The position numbers and the translations under genes were made by a program. The notes beneath the pieces were generated by a model. It ran no database searches and was not told where the DNA came from. It worked only from the letters and a program-made list of their open reading frames with translations. Shown piece by piece: positions 5,285 through 10,880 of a stretch of 14,199 nucleotides of DNA; positions within the stretch are counted from its first letter, which is position 1, and every line of letters begins with the position of its first letter. The DNA is taken from positions 1 through 14,199 of the forward strand of contig CAMBXJ010000048.1 of assembly GCA_945871455.1 (NCBI GenBank), in the 5' to 3' direction. This stretch comes from Asaia bogorensis. Lineage in GTDB: Bacteria; Pseudomonadota; Alphaproteobacteria; Acetobacterales; Acetobacteraceae.

Positions 5285-8545
<3,261 letters not shown>

Positions 8546-8730: not shown

Positions 8731-9042
8731 TTATTCAGCGGCCGACGCGTTGACCGGTTGCCCCGCTCGACCCCGAACCCATTTCCACCCGCGTTCCGAC
8801 AACCATCCATCAGACTCCTCGGGATCGGTGGCAATCACCAGAAGCCGCGCATCATTCGTGAAGCGCCTGATAGCCTCACTAATCGTGGCCGCATCGTTGC
8901 CACTAACCACCAGGAAAACGCCGGGGATGTGGTTCCACCAATTTTCAAAGAGATCGCTGGTCTTGATGAATTCCTTTAAGGATTCAAGCTCCAACGTTGG
9001 GTCAAACAGATCCAGGGTTATCAAAAATGTTCTACTCGCCAT
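8731..9042 (-). CDS. Small hypothetical protein, possible Cas2/SinR-like ferredoxin fold
   Basis: 103 residues, with no confident family. The start ATG at 9042 has GAGGA eight bases upstream and lies one base after the stop of the membrane-protein gene, so the two are surely co-translated; a longer in-frame reading to 9123 overlaps that gene and is less likely. The pattern is strand (TFLITLDLFD, 4-13), helix (LESLKEFIKTS), WW followed by a strand (GVFLVV), helix (AATISEAIRRFTN), strand (ARLLVIATD), then a Trp-rich tail. This order and the beginning resemble small Cas2/VapD/SinR-like proteins of the form YLITYDL...WW...; that is pattern recognition only. No signal peptide or membrane segment. 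Bases 8941-9060 are strikingly AT-rich for this region (24 and 27 G+C in two 60-base blocks), a sign of acquisition. Confidence 0.8.
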   Translation of the reverse strand: MASRTFLITLDLFDPTLELESLKEFIKTSDLFENWWNHIPGVFLVVSGNDAATISEAIRRFTNDARLLVIATDPEESDGWLSERGWKWVRGRAGQPVNASAAE

Positions 9043-9043
9043 T

Positions 9044-9442
9044 TCAACGATCCTCGTCGGCGCGTCGCTGGCGGGGGACGCGTACTTGGGGTGATTTGGG
9101 GCGCGGTCGATCATCGGCGTCAAGAACTGCGTGACTGAGCCGATCTCGCAGCACCGGGTCCATTTCCTTGTCTCCGATCATCTGTGCCATCGTCATGCTC
9201 AACACATGCCGTTCCGAACGAAGCATTTCGGGTCGTCTGATCATGGCGTACGCGACCAGCCCGATCGCGCTTCCCATGCTAGTCACGCCGCTGACCGCAA
9301 ATAAGATGCGAAGCCAATCGGCAGCAAGCAAGGTACCGCTGAAACAAGCCACCGCAAACAGAACGAGCATGCTGAACACAAAAGGGATGGGGTATGTGAC
9401 TGTCGCGCTTCGAATGGCGTGCTGGAAAAGCCGGGCGTCCAT
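9044..9442 (-). CDS. Small two-helix membrane protein of unknown function
   Basis: 132 residues, starting at an ATG two bases after the carA stop, so probably coupled to carA translation. Two hydrophobic helices are visible (about 17-41, PIPFVFSMLVLFAVACFSG, and 45-68, ILFAVSGVTSMGSAIGLVAY), joined by a very short turn; both ends are therefore predicted on the same side. A charged cytoplasmic tail follows: RRPEMLRSERH (69-79), MIGDKEMDPVLRDRL, then a basic proline-rich end. The RxPxxLRSE...GD tail recalls small membrane proteins found beside small soluble partners in accessory regions, but I do not recognise a named family. It is paired with the next gene by a one-base gap. G+C is 31-32 of 60 at 9301-9420, lower than carA. 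Confidence 0.82.
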   Translation of the reverse strand: MDARLFQHAIRSATVTYPIPFVFSMLVLFAVACFSGTLLAADWLRILFAVSGVTSMGSAIGLVAYAMIRRPEMLRSERHVLSMTMAQMIGDKEMDPVLRDRLSHAVLDADDRPRPKSPQVRVPRQRRADEDR

Positions 9443-9444
9443 GC

Positions 9445-10812
9445 CTACTGTCGCCCGTCGATCATCTCGGCGAAACGCCCAAACAAATAATGGCTATCGC
9501 TCGGCCCTGGGCTCGCCTCCGGATGATACTGCACGCTGAACGCCGGCCGGTCGGAACACGCCAACCCCTCGTTCGAGCCATCGAACAGGGACACATGCGT
9601 GGCCGTCACCGTTGCCGGCAGGCTGTCGGCATCCACCGCGAAACCGTGGTTCTGGCTGGTGATCTCCACCTTGCCGGTGGTCAGATCCTTCACCGGTTGG
9701 TTGGCGCCACGATGGCCGCGTTGCAGCTTGAAGGTCCGAGCACCGAGCGCCAAAGCCAGCAACTGATGCCCCAGGCAGATGCCGAACAGCGGCACCCCAG
9801 CATCCAGGACACCCCGGATCGCCGGCACCGCGTAAACGCCGGTTGCCGCCGGATCGCCCGGGCCGTTCGACAGGAACACGCCATCCGGCTTGTGTCGCAA
9901 GATATCCTCGGCGGTCGATGTCGCGGGCACCACCGTCACCTGGAAACCGGCCGAGGCCAGACACCGCAGAATATTTTGCTTGGCCCCGTAATCCACCGCC
10001 ACGACATGATGCCGCGGCGCGTCCTGCCGGCCGGCGCCATCGGGCCACGACCATTGCGTCTCATTCCAGGCGTAGCTCTGCCGGCAGGTGACCTCTTTCG
10101 CCAGGTCCATGCCTTCCAGCCCGGGCCATGCCCGCGCCTGGGCACGCAGCGCCTCCAGATCGAATTTTCCATCGTCCGGAAACGCCAGCACCCCGCTCGG
10201 CGGCCCGCCGTCGCGGATGCGTACCGTCAGCGCGCGGGTGTCCACGCCGGCAATGCCGGAAATGGACCGGGCGCGCAGCCAGGCATCCAGATGTTGGACC
10301 GAACGCCAGTTCGACGGTTCCGTGATGTCCTGTTTCACCACCAGGCCACGGGCGGCCACCGACACGGCCTCCATGTCGGCGTGGTTGGTGCCGACATTGC
10401 CGATATGCGGGAACGTGAAGGTGATGATCTGCCCGGCATAGGATGGATCGGTCAGGGTTTCCTGATAACCGGTCATCCCGGTGTTGAAGCAGATTTCCCC
10501 CACGCTCACCGGCGAACCCGCCTGGCTGGAAGCGCCGAAACCGCGCCCCCAGAACACCGTCCCATCCGCCAGCACCAGCGCCGCGGTGGCGCCCGGTGGC
10601 ACCTCGTCGGACGCCATGGGCGCCTCGCTTGCCCCGCCACGCAACTCGGCCAGGGTCAGGCCGGTGGACGCGGCGATCGCGTACCAATGGCGGGAAGGGA
10701 TAGAGCCAGCCTGGCGCCATTTGCGCACGGCCTCCGTGCTCACGCCGGCGAGGCGGGCGGCAGCCTCGCCGCCACCCAATCGGTCGATGATATCGTCTAC
10801 GAGTATCGGCAT
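9445..10812 (-). CDS. carA: Carbamoyl-phosphate synthase small subunit with N-terminal helix-turn-helix
   Basis: 455 residues against about 380 for E. coli CarA. The extra ~70 residues come first: [32 protein letters not shown] and then [20 protein letters not shown], which is the layout of a Cro/YdaS-like helix-turn-helix (recognition helix about 26-35). After a short linker (58-73) the CarA amidotransferase begins at [15 protein letters not shown]; the class I glutaminase triad is intact, C346 in FGICLGHQ and H430/E432 in [10 protein letters not shown], each 77 positions after the E. coli residues. It releases ammonia from glutamine for CarB. ATG at 10812 was chosen because it begins the HTH domain; it lacks a clear ribosome site. 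A TTG at 10851 would add 13 residues read through half of the inverted repeat. It heads the minus-strand operon and diverges from yqeY. Confidence 0.95.
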
Positions 10813-10825
10813 GGCGGATCGATAT

Positions 10826-10880
10826 CGGAAAAAATTTCCCGAGACAATCAAATGCGCGCGCGTTCAGGAAATTTTTTCCG
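10826..10880. promoter_or_regulatory. Perfect 14-bp inverted repeat, candidate operator
   Basis: CGGAAAAAATTTCC (10826-10839) and its exact reverse complement GGAAATTTTTTCCG (10867-10880), with a 27-base spacer; centre-to-centre distance is 41 bases, close to four helical turns. Each arm is also a near-palindrome, GGAAA-N3-TTTCC, as expected for a dimeric HTH protein. The first arm begins 14 bases before the carA ATG; the second lies about 72-85 bases before the yqeY ATG. A weaker third copy, GGATTTTTCC, is at 10897-10906. The likely ligand is the HTH of CarA itself (inference). A long RNA stem-loop in the carA leader is the alternative. Confidence 0.65.

Follow-up and report, generated by a model that had tools for sequence, protein, structure and literature searches.

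The window analysed here, a 14,199-nucleotide stretch of DNA assigned to Asaia bogorensis, carries carA as a minus-strand open reading frame (10812..9445) that encodes a protein of 455 amino acids. In a profile search the enzyme model TIGR01368 begins at residue 77, which leaves 76 residues ahead of the enzyme. The predicted Cro-like helix-turn-helix (HTH) domain comprises residues 1-60 (10633..10812, minus strand) and is followed by a linker, residues 61-76 (10585..10632, minus), which is poorly conserved in the alignment (this reaches residue 70). The enzyme part, stop codon included (9445..10584, minus), matches the profiles of CPSase_sm_chain and of the class I glutamine amidotransferases. 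The large CPSase subunit is encoded by carB (5285..8545, minus; NF003671, 1719.6 bits), possibly in the same operon as carA. Between the two genes lie two small minus-strand open reading frames, 9044-9442 (132 aa, with hydrophobic stretches) and 8731-9123 (130 aa), neither of which gave a Pfam match at E 0.01. At 214-2957, also on the minus strand, a GTPase and APS-kinase fusion adjoins a PAPS-reductase-family gene by Pfam; these we take to be ordinary sulfate activation genes, CysNC-like and CysD-like, respectively.

The N-terminal domain was matched by NF046037 ('carph-isopro') over CarA residues 5-57, with 66.2 bits for the cut-out domain and 61.5 bits in the whole protein, the curated cut-off being 38 bits. 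Pfam P22_Cro (PF14549, gathering threshold 30.2) reached 30.9 bits with the cut-out domain and 26.3 bits with the whole protein, and Pfam YdaS (PF15943) matched the cut-out domain weakly (25.2 bits, threshold 30). AlphaFold2, supplied with an alignment of 51 domains, predicted helices at residues 5-12, 15-22, 26-35, 40-50 and 54-58, that is, a helical HTH fold as in Cro, with block pLDDT values of 73-93 as far as residue 60; in the linker the pLDDT was below 50 at residues 62-66 and 68-70. Comparison of the profile of the 51 domains with solved structures returned XPH1, which is a hybrid of two Cro proteins, and the Cro proteins of Xfaso 1, N15 and P22 (E 3e-4 to 0.04). The best Foldseek matches of the domain model were N15 Cro on DNA, Xfaso 1 Cro and P22 Cro (probability 1.00, E 0.012-0.09), and in the structural comparison Z was below 8 throughout.

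The enzyme itself appears to be complete. CarA scored 449.3 bits on TIGR01368 (equivalog cut-off 307.35), and the glutaminase triad C346, H430 and E432 was invariant in 31 aligned CarA homologues. Thus, as judged by sequence and predicted fold, an intact enzyme and a DNA-binding domain are present in one chain. The first-pass annotation had described about 70 residues with a helix-turn-helix ahead of an enzyme with an intact triad, had offered the name carph-isopro for the domain, and had proposed a profile search with the domain alone, a structure prediction and a survey of CarA proteins for the extension. The results given above agree with that description and with the name offered, and the survey found the domain to be widespread in the window's family.

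In this survey the first 143 residues of CarA were matched in 192 of 200 family genomes and, among the matches listed, those of the family began at query residues 1-7. The 26 family genomes with weak or split matches were re-examined: 22 have the domain (one of them on another contig), in two a contig end interrupts the locus (G410, G558) and two, G413 and G497, which are both of the available genomes of the genus g306, have no HTH domain on CarA. A draw of 250 genomes from the order Acetobacterales returned only the window's family, in which every genome had a CarA match. In one family genome of 1.7 Mb (G583) the only CarA match was weak and about as long as those of proteins that lack the HTH, so that this genome may represent a second loss. 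The close homologues were, where named, mostly from Acetobacteraceae, with Rhodospirillales and Proteobacteria in addition. Named HTH-CarA records carry the labels Asaia, Acidocella, Acidobacteria and Marinimicrobia; since the Acidobacteria-labelled record falls among the family in the tree, its label is doubtful. The window's own genome, which is 85% complete, contains one NF046037 match, the one in CarA. Over the domain dN was 0.015-0.24 versus a dS of 0.33-1.8 in eight comparisons, and the domain is thus under purifying selection; all but one of the eight showed faster change in the domain than in the enzyme part. The extension is not a product of chance, since other CarA proteins of the family have the domain in the same position and its dN is below dS.

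A palindrome upstream of carA had been noticed by eye before an unbiased scan was made, in which all pairs of 4-mers at gaps of 0-11 were counted and no motif was assumed. The starting set consisted of 200 loci with a CarA core, of which 114 with the HTH (one per genome) and 76 without a detected HTH were used; second loci of genomes already counted (L188-L191), loci at contig ends (L173, L186, L187) and loci with too short an upstream region (L042, L076, L100) were excluded. For the HTH-bearing genes 250 nt upstream of the start were scanned (160 and 217 nt at two loci), and for the HTH-less controls 350 nt upstream of the core match. GGAA-N5-TTCC ranked first, being present in 108 of the 114 HTH-bearing upstream regions and strictly missing at six, while first-order Markov resampling gave a mean of about 1 (0.9-1.0) and a maximum of 4 in 200. 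At least two strict sites were found at 62 of the 114 loci. None of the 76 carA genes without a detected HTH had the palindrome; these are 74 named records, mostly alphaproteobacterial, and the two of g306, the absence of the HTH having been judged by tblastn with the window protein, which a much-diverged HTH could escape. Because all of these controls except g306 come from other groups, ancestry is confounded with the domain in this comparison. In other 250-nt segments of the same loci the palindrome occurred in 0 or 1 of 36-114, the two short loci being left out of the first segments (106 of 112 with the palindrome).

A weight matrix, built from the HTH carriers themselves, gave a median score of 26 for the carriers and 7.4 for the worst of them, and the best HTH-less gene (L041, its site not palindromic) scored 11.7. 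With this matrix a distal site was found at 87 of the 114 HTH-carA loci, spaced 37-41 bp from the proximal one in 72 and 48-50 bp, about one helical turn more, in eight; no distal site was found in the control segment of the same loci. The equal helical phase of the two operators suggests cooperation between them. In the window the proximal candidate operator, GGAAAAAATTTCC, occupies 10827..10839 and the distal one, GGAAATTTTTTCC, 10867..10879, with their centres 40 bp apart; both are indicated by the footprint, the tandem pattern and the sequence, the first also by the gapped-word scan and the second also by the matrix.

When 108 loci were aligned on the palindrome proximal to the start, the flanks were near random apart from promoter-like columns and a weaker palindrome centred 39 bp upstream. 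Relative to the operator, the conserved columns were TTG at -8..-6 (73-75% per column), G at -1 (81%), C at +13 (86%), A at +14 (71%) and T/A/T at +15..+17 (54, 69 and 45%). The TTG and T/A/T columns fit the promoter consensus of Gluconobacter oxydans, -35 ttGnnn and -10 nAtnnn, as it stands in the available part of its source (PMC5756330), and the operator fills the 17-bp spacer between them. In the window the predicted -35 element is TTGTCT (10842..10847, minus) and the predicted -10 element is TATCGA (10819..10824, minus), the proximal operator lying in the spacer. Since the predicted -10 element ends 6 nt before the ATG, the carA message is probably leaderless or nearly so. The earliest ATG of the open reading frame is at 10812. 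An upstream TTG, listed as its start at 10851, is an improbable start codon, since the operator and the predicted -35 and -10 elements separate it from the ATG. Operator and ATG are 24-28 nt apart in 59 of the 108 loci (full range 18-165). To the suggestion that the extension is never made, translation starting from near residue 70, which the first-pass annotation had named as a case that would overturn its reading, we give practically no credence: dN far below dS over the domain, the operator-to-ATG distances and the position of the window's predicted -10 just ahead of the long-form ATG all argue against it.

The tandem arrangement is largely confined to carA. A strict tandem pattern was present in 58 of 120 family genomes and could be placed at carA in 54 of the 58 (28 of 30 loci by tblastn and 26 of the remaining 28 genomes by coordinates); it lies elsewhere in three (G443, G416, G334), and its location could not be checked in G429. 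The reversed pattern, used as a control, occurred in three of the 120 genomes, which is about the rate of the pairs away from carA. The window's own genome has one tandem site, at carA. Single sites showed no enrichment there (98 against 104 for the reversed control, one mismatch allowed), and since they are no commoner than the control, other CarA targets in this genome are neither shown nor excluded.

A palindrome by itself does not identify the protein that binds it. It could be the site of another transcription factor, the CarA domain being a relic or serving in assembly only, but we consider this unlikely on several grounds. Site and domain co-occur, and in g306 both are absent (best matrix scores -8.9 and -8.1), whereas its neighbour G256 carries both. 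When 76 CarA cores were placed in a tree, g306 joined G256 with a support of 100/96, and the simplest reading is a loss of both domain and sites in g306; this is a single event, however, and its branch is long in a tree rooted, arbitrarily, at the midpoint. On this tree the HTH label needs four changes, one of which is L173, where the HTH is on another contig. The predicted recognition helix, approximately residues 26-35, contains A28, K31 and W32, which are invariant across the 51 aligned domains. Residue 34 of this helix is Q in 103 of 113 carriers and A, H, S or T in ten (L183, whose helix did not fit the pattern, was dropped); it is A in the CarA of Acidocella aquatica (L033). The outer G:C of the operator was altered in eight of the ten non-Q34 carriers versus 21 of the 103 Q34 carriers (Fisher p 2.5e-4); this association was chosen after examples had been seen and was then tested, and the test ignores shared descent. 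When all 121 variable columns in the first 140 CarA residues were ranked by covariation with the operator, residue 34 headed the list, followed by residue 25, which stands where the recognition helix begins. Residue 10 was third, followed by several enzyme columns with small p values, uncorrected for shared descent; shared descent therefore contributes to the covariation. Lastly, other enzyme fusions of the domain, described below, recur with other palindromes.

The proposal of the first-pass annotation that the enzyme regulates genes has thus gained strong, though indirect, support, since the paired palindromes of the carA promoter track the domain and covary with its recognition helix. In the window's family CarA is very probably an autorepressing enzyme that would act on the palindromes of its own promoter, as far as sequence evidence can tell. 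DNA binding by CarA, repression rather than activation and the cooperative binding of two dimers are what we infer. The N-terminal Cro-like domain of one CarA would pair with that of another, and the HTH dimer would sit on GGGAAANNNTTTCCC, the palindrome between the -35 and -10 elements of carA, with a second dimer on its copy farther upstream, at a distance of about 39 bp or nearly four helical turns. The bound protein would exclude RNA polymerase from the promoter, and the expression of carA, and probably that of carB too, would consequently drop when CPSase is abundant.

CarA might instead bind these sites and activate carA, or serve as an architectural factor. The distal site does lie upstream of the -35 element, where activators often bind, but the spacer that the proximal site fills is, at 17 bp, of ordinary length, whereas spacer activators of the MerR type use 19-20 bp, and the nearest solved relatives are phage Cro proteins, which are repressors. 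We therefore hold this to be less probable still than binding by a foreign factor, and retain autorepression. As for the sensing that the first-pass annotation had also proposed, the signal is a guess on our part, with the abundance of CPSase and its assembly with CarB as first choice; CPSase is an (alpha-beta)4 enzyme in E. coli. The signal may be tuned by UMP or ornithine, effectors that bind CarB, or, less probably, by glutamine in the glutaminase site.

The same domain was found on other enzymes. NF046037 was detected (E 0.001 or better) in 115 of 385 genomes of the class, above the cut-off in 73, and 50 loci were read, 30 from the class survey (the window's own included) and 20 fetched. 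At 27 of these 30 loci a GG-[IL]-RP motif is present in the domain, which continues into a long protein, and the long proteins resemble one another. The commonest carrier among the loci read (L002-L029 except L026) looks like a mitofilin-like membrane protein, an odd partner for a DNA-binding domain; the Pfam assignment as Mitofilin was made at L002 only. Short carriers without an enzyme occur in other families of the class, at L313:977-1180 (minus) and L314:527-937, with open frames of 68 and 137 aa and scores of 45.3 and 44.5 bits, respectively. By Pfam and NCBIfam, the domain is fused to HisZ (L298, L301, L309), CoaBC (L303), ArgB (L308), pyruvate dehydrogenase E1 alpha (L316), NAD(P)H-hydrate epimerase/dehydratase (L026), crotonyl-CoA carboxylase/reductase (L031, taken as an open frame of 1026 residues) and a nitrate-reductase-delta/TorD-like protein (L310). 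In the profile search of these fusions and of L314, the domain scores above the NF046037 cut-off in L309, L314, L026 and L031 only; L298, L301, L308, L310 and L316 are below it, and L303 is absent from the NF046037 listing of fusions.

The upstream regions of the HisZ, NAD(P)H-hydrate and CoaBC fusions also contain palindromes, each unlike the CarA operator. For the HisZ fusions of family f49 it is CATA-N3-TATG, part of ATTCATA-N3-TATGAAT, in 15 of 15 loci from related genomes, with two copies, some imperfect, in the 14 loci shown. In the 110 nt upstream of the HTH-HisZ start of L348-L362 the ATTCATA-N3-TATGAAT palindromes are seen in pairs, one of them near the ATG. TTCA-N7-TGAA was found in 17 of 23 loci for the HisZ fusions of family f19 and ACGT-N5-ACGT in five of nine for the NAD(P)H-hydrate enzyme fusions (nine of 11 kept, L401 and L402 having been dropped as no HTH was found in them), and for the CoaBC fusions half-sites were present in 9-18 of 30. 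One of the 24 matched genomes in the fusion-locus sample (L368, contig end) was unused. L026 and L392 have a perfect 21-bp palindrome, TTGTACGTATTTTACGTACAA, 31 nt upstream of the ATG of the HTH-NAD(P)H-hydrate epimerase/dehydratase, and inspection by eye shows a comparable site, placed within a TTGAC..TACAAC spacer, in several of their relatives. These operator sets, small and from related genomes, favour a general rule without proving one. We lean slightly towards the broader view that a phage Cro-like HTH may have been captured repeatedly by alphaproteobacterial core enzymes (CarA, HisZ, CoaBC, NAD(P)H-hydrate epimerase/dehydratase, perhaps ArgB, pyruvate dehydrogenase E1 alpha and crotonyl-CoA carboxylase/reductase). 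Each fusion would then be a one-gene homeostat with a private operator on its own promoter that follows the recognition helix, and the oligomeric CPSase would be a repressor that bridges two operators about four helical turns apart.

Gene regulation by an enzyme is in itself a known phenomenon. PutA of enterobacteria is a proline dehydrogenase which represses its own gene through its own ribbon-helix-helix. Like CarA, as read from its sequence and predicted fold, it joins an active enzyme and a DNA-binding domain in one chain; however, PutA has a ribbon-helix-helix, is catabolic and responds to a redox signal, whereas CarA has a Cro-like HTH on a subunit of a biosynthetic enzyme. BzdR of Azoarcus, as presented in the available sections of its description, is an enzyme-derived regulator, an HTH-XRE fused to a shikimate-kinase-like domain, and resembles CarA in having an N-terminal XRE-type HTH, a linker and the fold of a metabolic enzyme (PMC3602430). 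In the model of that paper, as far as its available text goes, the enzyme fold of BzdR is the effector domain and has lost its activity, whereas CarA retains the catalytic triad (PMC3602430). The phage Cro proteins of N15, Xfaso 1 and P22 (6on0/2hin, 3bd1, 1rzs) are stand-alone, whereas the CarA domain is fused and has a candidate operator of its own. The YdaS-type regulators (PF15943), likewise stand-alone, are Cro-like as the CarA domain is, with the weak Pfam match given above. They are described in the accessible part of a paper on prophage toxin-antitoxin systems (PMC8630535).

The CPSase gene of E. coli is governed by several separate regulators, namely ArgR, PurR, RutR, IHF and the trigger enzyme PepA, according to the available portion of an account of carAB control (PMC6245113), and a regulon survey, in the part available, places carAB under ArgR in gammaproteobacteria (PMC5343134). 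Regulation of this promoter by an enzyme is thus already known, but PepA is an unlinked aminopeptidase, and in the available portion of the E. coli account CarA itself is not described as a regulator (PMC6245113). In the literature searched we found no description of an HTH on CarA. CarA as its own repressor across a family, with a defined pair of operators, appears to be new, and so does the repeated occurrence of this domain on other enzymes.

CPSase provides for the synthesis of pyrimidines as well as of arginine, and in the window's family the task of the regulators seems to be performed by the enzyme itself, through a tandem operator that is rarely found away from carA in the genomes searched. 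If this is true, a catalogued domain would gain a function and an operator predicted to the base, and how a gene is informed of the level or state of the enzyme it encodes would become a directly testable question. Since the other fusions are built in a similar way, the turning of a phage repressor into the regulatory part of an enzyme may be a general route of evolution.
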